From Halopelagius longus (GTDB lineage: Archaea > Halobacteriota > Halobacteria > Halobacteriales > Haloferacaceae), in contig NZ_FNKQ01000003.1 in NCBI RefSeq assembly GCF_900100875.1, forward strand, positions 682,001 to 746,000: a stretch of DNA of 64,000 bases. The letters are read 5' to 3'. Every line of letters starts with the position of its first letter. The stretch's first letter is position 1. A program made the position numbers and the translations under genes. Below, one piece after another: positions 41,072 to 64,000 of the stretch. The notes under the pieces were generated by a model that made no database searches, was not told where the DNA came from, and saw only the letters and a program-made list of their open reading frames with translations.

Positions 41072-41191
41072 CGGTCGTCAGACCCTCTCCCGCCCGAAAC
41101 CCCTCCGTTTCAAGTGGAGATTGAGAACAGTTCGCATCGGGTGGGAGTGCAGAAGCGGAAGGGTTGCGGAGGCGGTATCGGACACCGAGTC

Positions 41192-52437: not shown

Positions 52438-53670
52438 ATGCGACTCGAACTCGACGACGTGCGGAGGGAGTACGGCGGGACGACTGCGCTCGCGGACGTG
52501 AGCCTCGATATCGAGGACGGCGAGTTCTTCACCCTCGTCGGCCCCTCGGGGTGCGGGAAGACGACGACGCTCCGCCTCGTGGCGGGCTTCGAAGAACCCA
52601 CCGCGGGGTCGGTTCGCTTCGACGGGCGGGAGATGCGCGGCGTGCCGCCCGAGGAACGCGGCGTCGGCGTCGTCTTCCAGAACTACGCGCTCTTCCCGCA
52701 CATGACCGTCGGCGAGAACGTCGCCTACGGCCTCCGCTTTGCGGACGCGCCGGGGGGCGTCTCAGACGAGGAACGCGTCGCGGAGTTGCTGGAGTTGGTC
52801 GGCCTCCCGGAGGCGGCCGACAGGGACCCGACCGAGTTGTCCGGCGGCCAACAGCAGCGAATCGCCCTCGCGCGGGCACTCGCGCCGGGCCCGAACCTCC
52901 TCCTTTTGGACGAACCGATGAGCGCACTCGACGCGCAACTGCGCGAACGACTGCGCGCGACGGTCAAGGAGATTCAGTCGGAACTCGAAATCACGACGCT
53001 GTACGTCACCCACGACCAAGAGGAGGCGTTGGCCGTCTCCGACCGAATCGCGGTGATGAGCGACGGCCGGGTCGAACAGGTCGGCGCGCCGCGGGAGGTG
53101 TACCGCCGGCCGCGGAGTCGGTTCGTCGCGGAGTTCGTCGGCGACAACAACGTGTTCGTCGGGCGCGCCGAAGAATCAACATCTCCACACGAAACAAAGG
53201 GGTTGGACGGGAGAACGGACGACGGGGCGGCCGAGTCGGAGGTTCGTATTACTATCGGGAACGAGACATATATCGTCCGGACCGACCGGGACATCGAGGC
53301 GGGCGACCGGGTGACGTTCTGCGTTCGACCGGAACAGATTCGCGTCCTCGCGGGGGGGTCCGACGACGGGGCGGACTCGGACGAGGGCGGGGCGCCGAGG
53401 GCGGAAACCGCCGACGGCGGCGAACCGACGGACTGCGGGGAGAAGACCGACGGCCGGGCGGCGACGGACCGCACGACGAACGCGGCGACGTCCCCGGAGA
53501 ACCGACTACGGGGGCGGGTGGCGGACGCGGAGTTCCTCGGCGAGACGACTCGCGTCCGAGTGGACTGCGACGGACACCGGATAACGCTCCGGACGGCGGA
53601 CCCCCTCGACGGAGTCGTCGAAGTCGGATTCGACGCGGCGGACGCCCGCGTCGTCGAAGTGGGCGAGTGA
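52438..53670 (+). CDS. thiQ: Thiamine ABC transporter ATP-binding protein
   Basis: A 410-residue ABC ATPase. Walker A VGPSGCGKTTTLRL, Q-loop VVFQNYALFP, signature LSGGQQQRIALARAL, Walker B LLLLDEPMSALD and the H-loop THDQEEA are all present. The C-terminal part has two TOBE-like strands, interrupted by about 55 acidic, low-complexity residues (around 305-355) absent from ordinary ThiQ or PotA. It energises thiBP. Fifty-two bases after thiP. Confidence 0.9.
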   Translation: MRLELDDVRREYGGTTALADVSLDIEDGEFFTLVGPSGCGKTTTLRLVAGFEEPTAGSVRFDGREMRGVPPEERGVGVVFQNYALFPHMTVGENVAYGLRFADAPGGVSDEERVAELLELVGLPEAADRDPTELSGGQQQRIALARALAPGPNLLLLDEPMSALDAQLRERLRATVKEIQSELEITTLYVTHDQEEALAVSDRIAVMSDGRVEQVGAPREVYRRPRSRFVAEFVGDNNVFVGRAEESTSPHETKGLDGRTDDGAAESEVRITIGNETYIVRTDRDIEAGDRVTFCVRPEQIRVLAGGSDDGADSDEGGAPRAETADGGEPTDCGEKTDGRAATDRTTNAATSPENRLRGRVADAEFLGETTRVRVDCDGHRITLRTADPLDGVVEVGFDAADARVVEVGE

Positions 53671-56801: not shown

Positions 56802-57860
56802 TCACTCGTCGGGTTCGCCATCCCACGAGTCGGGGACTTCGATGACGTAGCGTCCGTCCTCGCGCAGCGAGATGATGTACTCGGTGCGGTCGTACAGTTC
56901 CATCAGGTTCAGTTCGTACTCGCCGGGCGCGACGATTTTGATGCTCTCGAACTGGCTGTTCAGCTCCTCCCGCAGTTCGTCGAGCTCCGGTCGCTCGTCG
57001 CTCTGCGGTTCGATGACGGTGCCGTCGGCGTCGGTCGGCGGTCCGTCCGCCTCCTCGACCGCCGCGCGGTCCGCCGCCGCCGCTATCTCGTCCGGGGAGA
57101 CGACCGCGCTTCTGGCGCTCGCCTGCGCGGAGTCCTCGCGGTCGGGGTCGGGTTCGCCGGGCGCGGGCGCGTTTGTCGGCGTCTGCGGACTCCGTTCGTC
57201 GGGGGCCTGCGGCGAGTCGCTCGCCGAGGGCGACCCGGACTCGGGTTCGGCGCTCGAAGCGGACTCCGAGGCCGAAGCCGACGCGGACTCTCCCTCGGAC
57301 GAGGAGTCGGTACCGCGGGAGCTCACCCAGTCGCGGACCGACTTGCCCGCGCGGTTCGCACGGCCCGAGAGGCCGCCGCCGCCCTCCGCCGCCTCGGGCG
57401 AGGCGTCGCTCCGGGTCGCTTCGTCCGGCGCGTTCGACGCCGGTCGGTCGTCGTCCTCGACGTCGGCGGCGCGTTCCGCGGTGCGCGCCCACGTCGGGGA
57501 CTTCTCGTCCTCGGACCGGGTCCGACGGTCCGCCGACGTCTCCGAGGCGGAGCCGCCGGGTTCGGGTCCGGTCGCCGGCGAGTCGGTCGAGGCGGTTTCG
57601 CTTCGGCGAGTCGAGTCGGTATCGGACTGCGTGCGGTCGGCCGCCGAACTCCGGTCGGCGTCTGTCGGTGTCGAAGCGGAACTCGGGGAGGGGCGGTCCG
57701 TCCCCTCGGTTCGCGTCGAGGACGCCGCACCGTCGGTGGACCCCGAGCTGCCGGACGGACGGAACTGGAACTTGTTCCCGCCGCAGTTGGGGCACCCCGA
57801 TAGCATCTCCTTCGAGCCGTCGGGGAACACCTTACCGCAGTTCGTACATTGGTGGGGCAT
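56802..57860 (-). CDS. oapC: Origin-associated zinc-ribbon protein OapC (ArvC-type)
   Basis: A 352-residue protein. The N-terminal zinc ribbon is HQCTNCGKVFPDGSKEM followed by GCPNCGGNKF. About 220 residues of Ser/Asp/Glu low complexity follow. A conserved C-terminal domain then reads ELNSQFESIKIVAPGEYELN and YIISLREDGRYVIEVPDSW. Members of this family lie beside haloarchaeal origins with oapA and oapB and are thought to form an Arv system around a small GTPase. A gap of 138 bases separates it from oapB on the same strand. Confidence 0.9.
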   Translation of the reverse strand: MPHQCTNCGKVFPDGSKEMLSGCPNCGGNKFQFRPSGSSGSTDGAASSTRTEGTDRPSPSSASTPTDADRSSAADRTQSDTDSTRRSETASTDSPATGPEPGGSASETSADRRTRSEDEKSPTWARTAERAADVEDDDRPASNAPDEATRSDASPEAAEGGGGLSGRANRAGKSVRDWVSSRGTDSSSEGESASASASESASSAEPESGSPSASDSPQAPDERSPQTPTNAPAPGEPDPDREDSAQASARSAVVSPDEIAAAADRAAVEEADGPPTDADGTVIEPQSDERPELDELREELNSQFESIKIVAPGEYELNLMELYDRTEYIISLREDGRYVIEVPDSWDGEPDE

Positions 57861-57998: not shown

Positions 57999-58394
57999 TC
58001 AGCGTCGGGAGACGAGCGCGCTGATGAGGTTCTCGTCTTTGTGGAGCGTCTCTATCTGATTCGCCGGGCCGATGACGGTGAGCTTCTTCGTCTCCTCCGA
58101 GCCCATCAGTCGGCCGAGGAACCCTTGGCTCCCGGCCTTCGACTGCGGATACGTCTCTATCTCGATACCGTTGAACTCGTCGGGGCTGATCTCCGTCATC
58201 GTCACCTCGATGAGCTTCGACTCCTCGTCCGGCGACAGTCCCTCTTCGAGGATGACGATGTTGCCGTCGCGGACGCCGTCGAGGATGAGCCTGATCTTCT
58301 CCATGCTGGTCAGGCCCTCCATGCGGGCGCCGCTTATGAGGTCGATTTGAACTCCGTCCGTGTTGCCGGGTGTGACTTCAGGCATGATACTCAC
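57999..58394 (-). CDS. oapB: Origin-associated protein OapB (DUF2073, ArvB-type)
   Basis: A 131-residue soluble protein of DUF2073 (GVQIDLISGARMEGLTSMEKI, IVILEEGLSPDEESKLIEVT). It contains no enzyme motif; the family is thought to pair with the OapA GTPase. The GTG at 58394 overlaps the oapA stop (GTGA); ATG 58385 is an alternative three residues in. Part of the oapA-oapB transcript reading away from the origin. Confidence 0.9.
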   Translation of the reverse strand: MSIMPEVTPGNTDGVQIDLISGARMEGLTSMEKIRLILDGVRDGNIVILEEGLSPDEESKLIEVTMTEISPDEFNGIEIETYPQSKAGSQGFLGRLMGSEETKKLTVIGPANQIETLHKDENLISALVSRR

Positions 58395-59032
58395 CCGAAG
58401 TACTCCGCGATCTTGTCGTACACTTCGTCCATATTGTTTCCTTCCAGCGCCGAGAGTGGAACGGTCTCGTGTTGCGGGAACGCGTTCGCGATGCGCTGGA
58501 CGTTCGAGTCTTCGAGGTCGGTCTTGTTCGCGAAGATGAGCACCGGTAGGTCCTGACTCTCGATGATCCCGATGAGCATCGTATTCACTTGCGTGAACGG
58601 GTCCTCCGTGCTGTCGAGGACGTAGATGACGCCGTCGACGTCTTCGCGCAACCAGTGCATGGCCTCGGCGACACCCTCGGTCGCCTCTCGGGAGCGACGA
58701 ACGGCGTCGTCCTTCTCCATGTCGTGGTCGAGGAACTCCTTGTAGTCCACCTTCGTGGTGACACCGGGAGTGTCGACGATGTCGATCGTGACTTTCTTGC
58801 CGTTGCGCTCGATTTCCACGTTCTCCTTCCGACGCGCGCGGCGCGTCTCGTGAGGGATGTGGCTCTCGGGCCCGATGGCGTCACCGGTCCAGTCGCGTGC
58901 AATACGGTTCGCAAGGGTCGTTTTTCCGGCGTTCGGCGGTCCGTAAATGCCGATCCGTCTCGGCTCTGCGTCCGAGAACATCCGGTCGACGACCCGTGAG
59001 ATACTGTCTCTTAAATCTGTGAGCAGACCCAT
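58391..59032 (-). CDS. oapA: Origin-associated Era-like GTPase OapA (ArvA-type)
   Basis: A 213-residue small GTPase. G1 GIYGPPNAGKTTLANRI, G3 DIVDTPGVTTKVDY, G4 IFANKTDLED; G5 probably VPLSALEGNN. It is the gene nearest the origin on this side and leads the oapA-oapB transcript. The ATG at 59032 is preceded by ggaggctagg, a good ribosome site, and a TATA-like gtgtttaag about 70 bases upstream, so unlike many neighbours this messenger has a leader. An open frame to 59086 covers that leader and was rejected. Confidence 0.92.
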   Translation of the reverse strand: MGLLTDLRDSISRVVDRMFSDAEPRRIGIYGPPNAGKTTLANRIARDWTGDAIGPESHIPHETRRARRKENVEIERNGKKVTIDIVDTPGVTTKVDYKEFLDHDMEKDDAVRRSREATEGVAEAMHWLREDVDGVIYVLDSTEDPFTQVNTMLIGIIESQDLPVLIFANKTDLEDSNVQRIANAFPQHETVPLSALEGNNMDEVYDKIAEYFG

Positions 59033-59202
59033 CCTAGCCTCCCGCACCTCCCGACTCCGTCGTGGAGGGGCGTATGGAGGTACCACATTTCCGGGCCCAC
59101 TTAAACACTACGTCAGACGGCAGTCATTTTCACACCTCATTTATTCGAATTGAAATAGGTTTAACAGGGCGTTAGGACCTCGTACTCCGCCGTTCGACCC
59201 GA

Positions 59203-59244
59203 AGTAGTACCGTCCGTCGTCCGAGTAGTACCGTCCGTCGTCCG
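59203..59244. repeat. Perfect 2 x 21-base tandem repeat in the origin region
   Basis: Two adjacent copies of agtagtaccg-tccgtcgtccg (59203-59223, 59224-59244), identical at every base, between oapA and the recognition boxes. Confidence 0.75.
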
Positions 59245-59514
59245 ACCGGTCCACGTTCGCCGCCGCGCCGACGGACGACGCCCGGTCGAACCGACGTCCT
59301 CCCGACACGTCTCGACGCCCTAGTTTCGGGTGGAGAGCCGTCGAATCTCGTCGCCTCGGCGTCGTTCCGATACGTTCCTCGGCCGCGGAACGACTCCCTC
59401 GACCGAAGGACGGGACTAACTGACACCTAAATTGGGATAGTCACCGCGCGCGCGAGTTCGGTCTGAAGGAAGACGGTCGAATCGATCCAGGTCCGCTACC
59501 GTCCGACTCGCTCC

Positions 59515-59536
59515 GCCCCTCCGTTTCGATTCGAAC
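59515..59536 (-). promoter_or_regulatory. ORB-like box, outer left
   Basis: Minus strand: gttcgaatcgaaac then ggaggggc. Has the dyad and the G-tail of a recognition box, with a few changes from the two identical boxes. Confidence 0.55.
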
Positions 59537-59590
59537 CGTCTCGGAACGGGCGAGGTGAGAAAGGGAAAAGAAACGAAGCGACGGTGGAGG

Positions 59591-59658
59591 CGACGGGAGA
59601 GACGGGACGGCGGTAGAAACGAGACGACGGGAGAGACAGGACGGCGGTGAGAACGGAG
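59591..59658. repeat. Imperfect 2 x 34-base direct repeat, purine-rich strand
   Basis: Units 59591-59624 and 59625-59658 both begin cgacgggagagac and differ at a few positions. The plus strand over about 59540-59700 is strongly purine-biased (repeated gaga, ggga, aaag). Confidence 0.6.
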
Positions 59659-59827
59659 GAAGGTGAACACGAACGCGACGGTGAACGCACGGGGCACGCA
59701 GGACGGACGAGAGAACACGGTGGGTCGAACGGACGCACTGGACACGAAAGGGAGGGCCCGTCGGACGGAGAGACGGAGAAGGCGAGCGGGACGGAGAGCG
59801 AATCCGAGCCGATCGGCGGAACACCCC

Positions 59828-59851
59828 CACCCCTTCGTTTCGACTGGAAAC
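59828..59851 (-). promoter_or_regulatory. Origin recognition box (left of AT-rich segment)
   Basis: Minus strand: GTTTCcagtcGAAAC followed by GAAGGGGTG. Identical over 24 bases to the box at 60200-60223 but on the opposite strand. A g-rich run lies on its right side (59861-59873). Confidence 0.85.
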
Positions 59852-59884
59852 CCTCGTGAGGGTGGGGGGTGGGTCACCGAGTCG

Positions 59885-59985
59885 ACGGCTATGCTAGTTA
59901 ATACAACTAGCGACCCGGCCAATAATATCTCTCTTTTCTGTTCTACGGATACTGTTTCCACGGCAACGTGATAAAACCACCCGCT
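59885..59985. other. AT-rich segment, candidate DNA unwinding element
   Basis: Much richer in A and T than the surrounding DNA (aataatatctctcttttctg, 59920-59940). It contains a 17-base inverted repeat, CTAGTT-aatac-AACTAG (59894-59910), and lies between oppositely oriented boxes. Confidence 0.65.
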
Positions 59986-60023
59986 TCGAAAGACGGCTTC
60001 TACCCCCACCCGCCCTTTCGGCA

Positions 60024-60053
60024 GTTCCACCCGAAACGAAGGGGTGTGGGGGT
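60024..60053 (+). promoter_or_regulatory. Origin recognition box (right of AT-rich segment)
   Basis: gttccacccgaaac followed by gaaggggtg and an extended g-run. Opposite in direction to the left box. Confidence 0.8.
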
Positions 60054-60077
60054 ACTCCCCTACGTTTCGTGTCGAAC
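60054..60077 (-). promoter_or_regulatory. ORB-like box facing the preceding box
   Basis: Minus strand: gttcgacacgaaac then gtaggggagt. With the box at 60024 it forms a tail-to-tail pair whose G-tails meet at about 60053. Confidence 0.6.
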
Positions 60078-60199
60078 CCGAACCGACCTTCCGACGGAGC
60101 GTGTCCTCCGAGAACACTCGACACACTACGTCGCGAAATTGCAGATTCGAGCCGGAAAACGGCGGATACGTGCCTTCGCGTTCGAGCCGAACACCGTCG

Positions 60200-60223
60200 G
60201 TTTCCAGTCGAAACGAAGGGGTG
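60200..60223 (+). promoter_or_regulatory. Origin recognition box
   Basis: GTTTCcagtcGAAAC then GAAGGGGTG; exact match to the left box. Confidence 0.85.
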
Positions 60224-60287
60224 TAGCGTCCGAACGCGTCTCTCAGACCCGCCTGCGTTTTCGAACGCGAGTGTCGTCGTCGCCTCC

Positions 60288-60313
60288 GCGAGTGGAAACG
60301 AGGGTGGGGGTGG
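60288..60313 (+). promoter_or_regulatory. Degenerate ORB-like box with g-run
   Basis: gcgagtggaaacgagggt followed by gggggtgg; right half of the dyad and the G-tail are kept. Confidence 0.5.
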
Positions 60314-60409
60314 GAGCGACGAGACGGCGTGGAGTCGAAACGGTGGCCTCCTGGCGGGAAGGAACGCGGGATGAGACGGCCGTATCACACCGGCATCCGG
60401 GGAAGATAC

Positions 60410-60433
60410 GTTTGCAGTCGAAGTCTGGGGGCC
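60410..60433 (+). promoter_or_regulatory. Degenerate ORB-like box
   Basis: gtttgcagtcgaag then tctgggggcc; dyad centre and G-tail retained. Confidence 0.4.
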
Positions 60434-60708
60434 GATTCGCGGCGTCTATCGGTTTTTCGACTCTCTCAGTCCTCGACGAGAGTCGCCGCAGTCACCAAAC
60501 TCCATCCGAAATCTCCACTCGAGTGAACAGTCGAACGACGGTACCGGTGGGCATCGCGTACCGTTCAACGTTGATGCCGATAGACAATTTTTAGTACCAC
60601 CTGTTCGTCTGGTTCGTCTGCATCATCTGGACGCGCCGTCTTCGGTGCGACGGCGGAGTACCGGTGTCCTACACCGTCTTCCGCCGACTGTGCACCGTCT
60701 GCGGCCCG

Positions 60709-60730
60709 CTTTCCACTCGAAATTGGGGGG
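60709..60730 (+). promoter_or_regulatory. orc1: ORB-like box over the orc1 promoter
   Basis: ctttccactcgaaa then ttgggggg, ending nine bases before the orc1 ATG. It occupies the place where a leaderless orc1 transcript would have its TATA box and start, and no other TATA is seen there. Confidence 0.65.
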
Positions 60731-60739
60731 TATGCACGT

Positions 60740-62602
60740 ATGGACGAAGACACTCCGCGCGACAGGGACGCAGACGAAGACGGCACAGAGCGCGGCGGAC
60801 AGGAACCACAGCATAGTAGCGAACCGAACAGCGACGCATCGGACGACGACGAATCGAACAGCACCGCATCGAACAGTGACGCACCGACCGGGGAGGGATC
60901 GAAAAACGACGCATCGGCCGGCGACGACTCGACCGCGGACGGCGACTCGACCGCGGACGGCGACTCGGCCGCAGACGAGACTGCCGGTCGGACCGTCGAC
61001 GGCGACGAACGAGGCGGGCCGTCCCGCGGGACGCAGTCCGACGACGCGGCCGAACGGGGGTCGTCGGACCGCCGGCCGGAGTCCGGGGACGACCCGGTCA
61101 CGGCCGAAGACATCGACATCAGAGAGAGCATCGGCCCCTCCGCGGCGTCGGACGGGACGGACGACGGGTCGCCGGACGTGAGCCTCGACGAAGTCGTCCT
61201 CGACGACGACGACGGCGACAGTCGCGGCCTGTTCGACGACCTGCTGTCGGGCGAACCCATCTTCGAGAACAAGGAGGTTCTCCGCCCCTCGTACACGCCG
61301 CACGAACTCCCCCACAGAACCGAGCAGATAAATCAGATGGCGACGATTCTCGTCTCCGCCCTCCGCGGGGAGACGCCGTCGAACATCCTCATCTACGGGA
61401 AGACCGGGACCGGGAAGACGGCGAGCGCGAAGTTCGTCAGTCAGGAACTGGAATCGACCTCGCAGAAGTACGACGTTCCCTGCGAGGTGGAGTACATCAA
61501 CTGCGAGGTGACCGACACGCAGTACCGCGTCCTCGCACAGTTGGCAAACAAGTTCATCGAGAAGAACGAAGCGTACATCGAACGCGAACTCGACCGCCTC
61601 CGCGACTTGCGCGCCCGCGCCGCGGAGTCGGTGAACGAACTGACCGACACCGACTTCGACTCCGTCGCCGCCGTCGAACAGCGGATTTCGCAGCTCGAAG
61701 AGGACTTAGAGGAGATGGAGGCGGTGCCCATGACGGGGTGGCCGACCGACCGCGTGTACACGACGTTCTTCGACGCGGTGGACTACAACGAACGCGTCGT
61801 CGTCATCATGCTCGACGAGATAGACAAACTCGTCGAGAAATCGGGCGACGACACCCTCTATAACCTCTCGCGGATGAACTCCGAACTCGACAACTCCCGC
61901 ATCTCCATCATGGGTATCTCGAACGACCTGAAGTTCACCGACTTCCTCGACCCCCGCGTCAAATCCTCTCTCGGCGAGGAGGAGATCGTGTTCCCGCCGT
62001 ACGACGCGAACCAACTCCGCGACATCCTCCAACACCGCTCCGACGTGGCGTTCAAAGACGGCGCACTCACCGACGACGTCATCCCCCTCTGTGCCGCCTT
62101 CGCCGCGCAGGAACACGGCGACGCGCGGCGCGCACTCGACCTTCTGCGGACCGCGGGCGAACTCGCGGAACGCGGCCAGTCCGACACCGTCGAGGAGGCG
62201 CACGTCCGGCAGGCCCAAGACAAGATAGAACTCGACCGAGTGGTCGAAGTCGTCCGGACGCTCCCCACCCAGTCGAAGATCGTCCTCTTTTCGACCATCC
62301 TCTTGGAGAAGAACGGCGTCCGCAACATCAACACCGGCGAGGTGTTCAACATCTACAAGCGCCTCTGTGAGGAGATAGACGCCGACGTGCTCACCCAACG
62401 GCGCGTGACCGACCTCATCTCGGAACTCGACATGCTCGGCATCGTCAACGCCGTCGTCGTCTCGAAGGGACGCTACGGCCGCACGAAGGAGATCTCGCTT
62501 TCGGTCCCCATCGACGAAACCGAGGCGGTCCTCCTCTCGGACTCCCGACTCGGCGATATCGAGAACGCGCAACCGTTCGTCCAAGCCCGGTTCGACAACT
62601 AA
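60740..62602 (+). CDS. orc1: Orc1/Cdc6-family replication initiator
   Basis: A 620-residue AAA+ initiator. About 170 N-terminal residues are Asp/Ser/Thr-rich with direct repeats (DDSTADGDSTADGDSAADE) and look disordered. The AAA+ core follows: Walker A IYGKTGTGKTASA (residues 218-230), Walker B VVIMLDEIDKLVEK, sensor region ISIMGISNDLKF. The C-terminal winged helix (about 520-615) recognises the boxes. It binds the origin and loads the MCM helicase. ATG 60740 is used; a GTG near 61179 would remove the extension. Confidence 0.96.
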   Translation: MDEDTPRDRDADEDGTERGGQEPQHSSEPNSDASDDDESNSTASNSDAPTGEGSKNDASAGDDSTADGDSTADGDSAADETAGRTVDGDERGGPSRGTQSDDAAERGSSDRRPESGDDPVTAEDIDIRESIGPSAASDGTDDGSPDVSLDEVVLDDDDGDSRGLFDDLLSGEPIFENKEVLRPSYTPHELPHRTEQINQMATILVSALRGETPSNILIYGKTGTGKTASAKFVSQELESTSQKYDVPCEVEYINCEVTDTQYRVLAQLANKFIEKNEAYIERELDRLRDLRARAAESVNELTDTDFDSVAAVEQRISQLEEDLEEMEAVPMTGWPTDRVYTTFFDAVDYNERVVVIMLDEIDKLVEKSGDDTLYNLSRMNSELDNSRISIMGISNDLKFTDFLDPRVKSSLGEEEIVFPPYDANQLRDILQHRSDVAFKDGALTDDVIPLCAAFAAQEHGDARRALDLLRTAGELAERGQSDTVEEAHVRQAQDKIELDRVVEVVRTLPTQSKIVLFSTILLEKNGVRNINTGEVFNIYKRLCEEIDADVLTQRRVTDLISELDMLGIVNAVVVSKGRYGRTKEISLSVPIDETEAVLLSDSRLGDIENAQPFVQARFDN

Positions 62603-62656: not shown

Positions 62657-63611
62657 ACGCGCCAGCGAGTCGCGGACCGAACGTCGTCTCCACCGTCGCG
62701 TTCCCGCCCGTATCGAGCGTTCTCACCTCGAGTAGTGTCTCCCGCGTGGACTCGAAGCGAAGGGGTTCGGAATCGACAATCGACGCGGGACCGTCAACCG
62801 ACGGTGACTCACCCACGGACGGTGACTCGTCCACGGCCGATGACTCGTCCACGGCCGATGACTCGCCCACGGACGATGGCTCGTCCACCGACGCCGGAGT
62901 ATCGACGGGCGTCGAGAGGAACAGTCCCGCGAGTTTCAGTCGGACGTAGCCGAGGTACGGGACGCGGATGTGGGCGACGCCCTCTATCCACTCCTTCTTG
63001 ACCGGTTCCGCGATATCGCTGGCTTGGTCGTACTGCGAGTTGGCGTCGCCCTTCGTGATGAACCCCGCGTGCGGCGCGGGGCAGTTGTCCAGTTCCGCGC
63101 AGTTGTCCGCGTTCACGTAGTCGGGGTTCGCCTCGCTGTACCAGTTTTCGCCCTCCTCGACCCAGAAGTGAGCGCGGTGGATTATCGGCGACCCGAACCG
63201 GGAGGGCGGGTCGTAGACGACGACGGACCCGTTGCCGCCGAGCGTTCGGTACCCCCTCTCCTCGCCGACTTCCACCGGAACCACGCCTGTCTGTTCGACG
63301 GCGTACTCCGGACTGAACCGGTCGGGGTCGCTGATGAAGACGAGGTCACCCCGCTCCATGTGCGGTTCCATGCTCCCGCTCTCGACGGCGACCATCGGCG
63401 GCCAGACGCCGCTAACGAGGTAGAGCAACAGGCCAATAGCGACGACGACGGAGAGACTGACCGCCACTTCGCGGACGAACACCAACGCCCCCGTCTCCGC
63501 CGTCCGAAGTCGAGTGAAGAAGTCGTCCGCATCCCCCGACTCCCCTCTCGCCTCGGGTGAGAGAGGCGGGGGGTCCGCGTCACCGCCCGACTCCTCCTCG
63601 TCGTGAGTCAT
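62655..63611 (-). CDS. sec11: Signal peptidase I (archaeal S26B type)
   Basis: A 318-residue membrane-anchored signal peptidase. One N-terminal helix (about residues 45-70) precedes the catalytic Ser in VESGSMEPHMERGDLV. SPIIHRAHFW supplies the His that replaces the bacterial Lys, and ITKGDANSQYD the conserved Asp region. It cleaves Sec signal peptides outside the cell. Between the catalytic part and the C-terminus lie about 40 residues of repeats (SSAVDESSAVDESPSVGES) from roughly 18-base DNA repeats at 62790-62900. Convergent with orc1. Confidence 0.92.
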   Translation of the reverse strand: MTHDEEESGGDADPPPLSPEARGESGDADDFFTRLRTAETGALVFVREVAVSLSVVVAIGLLLYLVSGVWPPMVAVESGSMEPHMERGDLVFISDPDRFSPEYAVEQTGVVPVEVGEERGYRTLGGNGSVVVYDPPSRFGSPIIHRAHFWVEEGENWYSEANPDYVNADNCAELDNCPAPHAGFITKGDANSQYDQASDIAEPVKKEWIEGVAHIRVPYLGYVRLKLAGLFLSTPVDTPASVDEPSSVGESSAVDESSAVDESPSVGESPSVDGPASIVDSEPLRFESTRETLLEVRTLDTGGNATVETTFGPRLAGA

Positions 63612-63727: not shown

Positions 63728-64000
63728 GTGCCTCTGGAGACGCCGTCGCGCATCGTGCAGGAACTCGCTCGTCACGGCTACAACGCCGAGAGGGAGGCCG
63801 TGACGCTCATCGCCGGTGCCGCCGACCCGGCGACTGCGCTGGCGCGCGCGGTGGAAGAAGCGGGCGACGACGCGTTCCGCGTCACCGCCGCCGACGTTCG
63901 GGCGGTCCTCGACGCGGCGCGTTCGGCGGACGCGGAGACGACGCCCTCGCCGACGGCGTCTCCGACCGGCGATTCGACACCCGCCCCCGACCCCTCCGTT
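63728..64000 (+). CDS. polB: DNA polymerase D small subunit DP1, N-terminal part
   Basis: The first 91 codons of a gene running off the window. GTG start; the protein begins PLETPSRIVQELARHGYNAE, with EREAVTLIAGAADPATALAR following, the N-terminal helical domain of haloarchaeal DP1. A Thr/Pro/Asp linker then begins. The phosphoesterase domain that gives 3'-5' exonuclease activity lies beyond the end. An AT-rich ttcaatacgctttt lies about 25-38 bases before the start. Its partner, the large subunit, is at 7647-11246. Confidence 0.85.
   Translation, partial: MPLETPSRIVQELARHGYNAEREAVTLIAGAADPATALARAVEEAGDDAFRVTAADVRAVLDAARSADAETTPSPTASPTGDSTPAPDPSV

Follow-up and report, generated by a model that had tools for sequence, protein, structure and literature searches.

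The oriC1 replicators of haloarchaea are a well-described origin family, known from the work of Wu and colleagues (PMC3528665 and PMC3936714). In Haloarcula hispanica oriC1, mutation of either G-string abolishes ARS activity and the inner G-rich inverted repeat functions as an enhancer; the same organism possesses oriC2D, an ORB-rich region downstream of cdc6E for which initiator titration and negative control have been proposed (PMC3936714). In Sulfolobus, a conserved short motif termed ucm is placed midway between two ORBs and is bound by UBP (PMC12141716).

The locus under study is contained in a window of 64,000 nucleotides of Halopelagius longus DNA (contig NZ_FNKQ01000003.1, here C3, positions 682,001 to 746,000). 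It has in common with H. hispanica oriC1-cdc6A the inverted ORBs with extended G-strings, the AT-rich segment, the inner G-rich inverted repeat and the adjacent orc1/cdc6 gene. The G-rich repeat has its two halves here, whereas only one half is reported for Halogeometricum borinquense (PMC3936714). Two features, a central motif between the core boxes and a field of satellite boxes around the origin, are not found mentioned in the accessible sections of the haloarchaeal oriC1 descriptions (PMC3528665, PMC3936714). The coordinates are collected in Table 1.

Table 1. Genes, boxes and candidate elements of the oriC1 region (window positions unless preceded by C3)
Feature	Position	Strand	Basis
oapC (origin-associated protein C)	56802..57860	-	Pfam PF09845 E=2e-28
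oapB (origin-associated protein B)	57999..58385	-	Pfam PF09846 E=3e-43
Small Era-like GTPase gene, adjoins oapB	58391..59032	-	Pfam MMR_HSR1, NCBIfam small_GTP
orc1 initiator gene, 620 aa	60740..62602	+	NCBIfam NF001625 (ORC1-type replication protein) E=9e-196, Pfam Cdc6_C
dp1 (PolD small subunit), gene start, runs off window	63728..64000	+	NCBIfam NF003116 E=2e-294
Core ORB, left, extended G-string GGGGTGGGGGTG	59822..59850	-	core matrix 47.1 of 50.3 bits
Core ORB, right, extended G-string GGGGTGTGGGGG	60024..60052	+	core matrix 48.5 of 50.3 bits
AT-richer segment between core boxes, presumed unwinding element	59880..59990		50-mer AT 0.50-0.54 vs window 0.33
Inner G-rich inverted repeat, left half GGGTGGGGGGTGGG	59860..59873		sequence; words of the CCCCCACCC type found repeatedly between the boxes of relatives
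Inner G-rich inverted repeat, right half CCCCCACCCGCCC	60003..60015		sequence; conserved C-rich block beside right box
Central motif TACGGATACTGTT, family consensus TACGGRTWTGGTT	59944..59956	+	recurrence in relatives, fixed distance to right core box
ATAAAACCAC element, between central motif and right core box	59971..59980	+	recurrent 10-mer, 20/71 relatives; conserved columns downstream of central motif
Extra box, dyad identical to left core	60201..60224	+	satellite matrix 36.7, core matrix 32.5 bits
Moderate satellite-class box	60054..60077	-	satellite matrix 18.0 bits
Moderate satellite-class box	59513..59536	-	satellite matrix 18.8 bits
Weak satellite-class box, absent from the sequence-only reading	59313..59336	-	satellite matrix 16.0 bits
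Box just upstream of orc1 start; plus box there recurs in relatives	60710..60733	+	satellite matrix 23.0 bits
Weak satellite-class box downstream of orc1	62745..62768	+	satellite matrix 18.6 bits
Satellite box, ~19 kb left of core, convergent intergenic gap	41097..41120	-	satellite matrix 37.5 bits
Satellite box, ~7 kb left of core, inside ABC-transporter ATPase gene	53182..53205	+	satellite matrix 34.4 bits
Minus box of dp1 inverted pair, runs off window	63988..64000 (C3:745988-746011)	-	satellite matrix 36.0 bits
Degenerate plus partner in dp1, 57-58 bp further on	C3:746046	+	8.2 bits

Identity and gene neighbourhood of the origin

Synteny of orc1 with oapB and oapC, a conserved core pair in a layout common to relatives, and the turning point of the GC skew together lend strong support to the region being the main chromosomal origin, as a sequence-only reading of the window had proposed; on this evidence from sequence, it is almost certainly oriC1 of the main chromosome of H. 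longus. Cumulative GC skew, scanned over 183 kb of the contig, peaks at C3:743182, corresponding to window position 61182. The genes follow the order oapC-oapB-GTPase, a 1.65-kb intergenic region and orc1. The GTPase gene, the putative oapA of the sequence-only reading, showed no match to an OapA-specific model in Pfam and NCBIfam. The orc1 orthologue is present once per genome in 45 family and 59 class genomes, with a second, weaker match in two; judged by orc1, Halogeometricum limi and H. pallidum are the closest among named relatives. Five more Orc1/Cdc6-type genes are located on C2, C4, C5, C6 and C7 of the source genome (G000); beside these five, no oriC1-type box with one mismatch or fewer was found.

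Core pair and elements between the boxes

Boxes were scored with core and satellite matrices derived from the boxes of relatives, for which the reversed-sequence null reached at most -8.2 (core) and 2.9 (satellite). The two core boxes are ~196 bp apart, with the AT-rich segment between them, and both carry the halophile-specific extended G-string. Across 80 named oriC1 loci, the minus box of the recurring arrangement has a plus box ~200 bp further on; another plus box close to the start of orc1 and boxes downstream of orc1 belong to it too. Given the ~200-bp layout of the relatives and the essential role of the extended G-string in H. hispanica, 59829 (-) and 60025 (+) are likely to constitute the functional core pair. 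The sequence-only reading had pointed to two identical boxes in opposed orientation, and these are indeed 100% reverse-complementary over 25 nt (59828-59852 vs 60199-60223). Its model of Orc1 loading, which paired 59828 with 60200, did not hold up: relatives keep 59829/60025, these two are the only ones of the boxes concerned to carry the extended G-string, and 59828/60200 was thus rejected as the functional pair. The low score of the box at 60201 on the core matrix is due to the missing extended G-string.

An AT-rich segment between the boxes, as put forward in the same reading, is present at ~59880-59990, but the most AT-rich intergenic stretch lies outside the boxes, at 59115-59175 upstream of the GTPase gene. 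Within 2 mismatches, the central-motif consensus is found in 33 of 71 inter-box regions compared to 16 of 1420 shuffles, though visual selection of the pattern within this set of sequences inflates the count. The distance to the right core box, tightly held at a median of 69 bp in relatives and 68 bp here, is free from this effect. The likeness of the central motif to the Sulfolobus ucm (PMC12141716) is one of position between ORBs and not of compared letters. Repeats are also observed to the left of the core boxes: a purine-rich stretch immediately beside them (59587-59654) comprises three overlapping 34-nt direct repeats, and 59203-59244 of the origin intergenic region is a perfect 21-nt tandem duplication, AGTAGTACCGTCCGTCGTCCG.

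Nine or so boxes had initially been mapped in the origin region. Those at 59822, 60024, 60054, 60201, 60710 and 59513 score above the null, as does the additional box at 59313. The proposed boxes at 60288 (-7.1 on the core matrix, outside the best 28 on the satellite matrix) and 60410 (score of 4.6) were rejected as inseparable from background, so that seven boxes are supportable instead of nine. An equal frequency of the box across the chromosome, named at the outset as an objection, is not what is found: in the whole 3.87-Mb genome, good matches cluster round the origin, all three exact matches to TTCCANNNGAAACNNNGGGGT are in the origin region, and of the 10 matches with no more than one mismatch, 9 fall on C3 between 723 and 794 kb around the origin (reversed control, 0).

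Satellite boxes around oriC1

The satellites represent a class of their own. They consist of the same dyad as the core boxes plus GGGGT. The dyad is followed by GGGGTGKGGGGG in core boxes; in satellites, position +21 is T or C and the extended G-string is missing (p=3e-26). In the source genome, good matches other than those of the origin are nearly all on the origin contig, within ~65 kb of the origin. Further haloarchaeal genomes were searched with YTCSANNNGAAACGNAGGGGT at up to one mismatch, the reversed pattern serving as control. The controls gave almost no matches, and chance or composition as the source of the satellites was rejected on that ground. Counted among the matches listed for 34 near-complete genomes, with approximate chromosome lengths and hand-transcribed positions, satellite density falls steeply with distance, from ~20/Mb at 10-30 kb to ~0.04/Mb beyond 500 kb. 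For successive distances of 5-10, 10-30, 30-60, 60-100, 100-200, 200-500 and over 500 kb, the same counts amount per Mb, left/right of orc1, to 71/18, 21/19, 4/9, 4/3, 0.9/2.8, 0.9/0.7 and 0.09/0. Among the matches listed, 55 of 95 satellites are placed at 5-60 kb compared to 3.8% expected (p=1e-52), and with one genome per genus it is 41 of 67 (p=6e-41; 18 of 25 genera). At this stringency, the matches listed include no more than a few satellites for most genomes. An outward orientation bias, hinted at by the first 15 genomes, was gone with 34 (p about 0.2-0.8). Satellites are more often in the orc1 orientation on both sides, in a count over the 34 near-complete genomes that includes related genomes individually.

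At the site corresponding to the satellite within the ABC-transporter ATPase gene (window 53182), two other genomes (G022, G041) also have a box, which is located there in non-coding DNA beside the orthologous flanking permease gene. Tandem boxes 47 bp apart are observed in the source genome beside a CGI-121 family protein gene (C3:753708-753776; L106 8708-8776), and G001, G022 and G041 have such a pair in comparable locations. An identical 21-nt box is located off the origin contig in both genomes of the genus (G000 C1:165770, L122 9770; G001 C2:902424, L123 9424), outside called genes and, by composition-based gene calls, in a convergent gap in both. In Haloferax, box identity at three satellite positions is 0.99, 0.96 and 0.95, compared with 0.35-0.74 in the adjacent 50-bp flanks. 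A plus satellite followed by an inverted dyad preceded by AAGGGGT is seen in that genus (L029-L041) ~11.5 kb right of orc1. Regarding genomic setting, 116 satellites outside the origin region were classified with genes called by our own codon-composition script, related genomes being counted separately, so the statistics are rough: 48% are non-coding vs 17% expected, convergent gaps hold 25 and divergent gaps 0. Several satellites are inside coding sequences.

One coding case is dp1: ~4 kb to the right of the core, this gene harbors one minus and one plus box at a usual spacing of 57 bp. At sites selected by peptide alone, the prolines of the dp1 boxes are encoded by CCA in 48 of 50 cases vs 8% elsewhere in dp1 (p=2e-50), glutamate by GAA in 50 of 50 (vs 27%) and glycine by GGG in 46 of 50 (vs 24%). 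Rare synonymous codons are thus fixed in the boxes, and conservation extends to the DNA instead of being confined to the protein; on this codon use, conservation of the protein was rejected as an explanation for the boxes. The majority of dp1 genes close to the origin retain this spacing between their best plus and minus sites, even where these are degenerate. A single relocation event in one genus provides a comparison: in G030, orc1 and dp1 are separated by ~145 kb and the gene has no box left; G008, a member of that genus whose dp1 is also distant, has a degenerate plus box only. The dp1 genes of G002 and G058 are box-poor though near the origin, hence box loss is not exclusive to distance.

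Possible roles of the satellite field

The satellites are very probably functional Orc1-type sites, and their dyad, shared with the core boxes, suggests that Orc1 binds them. An ordinary oriC1 surrounded by non-functional relics or chance matches is highly improbable and already largely refuted; it would agree with oriC1 itself being a well-described family and with some satellites being degenerate and differing between genera, but it is at odds with the near-zero reversed control, the strong distance gradient, the conservation of Haloferax satellites amid diverged flanks and the rare synonymous codons fixed in dp1. Regulation of nearby genes by Orc1 through the satellites seems improbable. 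Many relatives have a box close to where orc1 starts, which makes autoregulation possible at that place, yet several satellites are within coding sequences, convergent gaps are over-represented, and transcription control is disfavored because none of the 116 classified satellites lies in a divergent gap. An auxiliary or back-up loading function, by which the satellites would start replication if the core were lost or would hold extra MCM, also has little probability. The dyad is that of the core, and in the inverted dp1 pair the tails face outward as they do in the core, but the satellites are devoid of the extended G-string essential for ARS activity of H. hispanica oriC1 (PMC3936714). Furthermore, the dp1 pair is too close for a comparable AT-rich segment.

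A partition or organisation system, in which Orc1 or a partner (e.g., an Oap protein) would mark the origin for segregation or folding in the manner of bacterial parS sites, appears rather unlikely, although several observations suit it: the satellites are origin-centred on both sides without significant outward orientation, they prefer non-coding and convergent places, and they include an inverted pair with fixed spacing. Bacterial parS sites occur in several copies concentrated around the origin. Several origin-centred copies are thus common to both, but the satellites share the initiator's own dyad. The gradient would fit a partition or organisation role equally well as titration.

It is reasonably probable that an origin-centred field of this distinct G-string-less class, extending over ~100-500 kb and placed partly in dp1, sets oriC1 firing or the organisation of the origin region. 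The statement in full, that oriC1 is accompanied by a satellite field acting as an Orc1-titration field to damp re-initiation, is offered as a tentative proposal. In E. coli, datA and DnaA-box clusters are initiator sites near the origin with a proposed role in restricting re-initiation. In contrast to datA, the archaeal Orc1-type boxes are arranged in a dispersed gradient instead of at one locus, and titration is what we infer for them. The oriC2D of H. hispanica (PMC3936714) similarly involves extra ORBs outside the origin, in one cluster beside oriC2, whereas singles and pairs are spread here over tens to hundreds of kb round oriC1 in many genera. Titration is our first choice because origin-adjacent sites double first after firing and because oriC2D sets a precedent. 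Orc1 most probably binds the two core ORBs, with their G-strings pointing outward, and loads MCM onto the AT-rich segment between them, in which the conserved central motif lies, as known oriC1 origins suggest. The satellites round oriC1, their density falling over roughly 100-500 kb, would take up Orc1; duplicated straight after firing, they would soak up Orc1, with the effect that immediate re-initiation may be lessened. Unless weaker sites are included, the few satellites per genome are a modest number for titration. Given the polyploidy of haloarchaea, tight once-per-cycle titration is less obviously needed.

The passages of open-access literature covered gave no mention of a dispersed initiator-box field round oriC1, and novelty of the satellite field is accordingly provisional. 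The proposed field bears on a poorly understood matter, the limitation of oriC1 firing in archaea that have several origins and many copies of the chromosome. The conserved graded boxes, present also in the tractable Haloferax, offer precise sites to delete or recode, and the dp1 pair is alterable through synonymous changes. If the proposal is true, replication control would be overlaid on protein-coding sequence.
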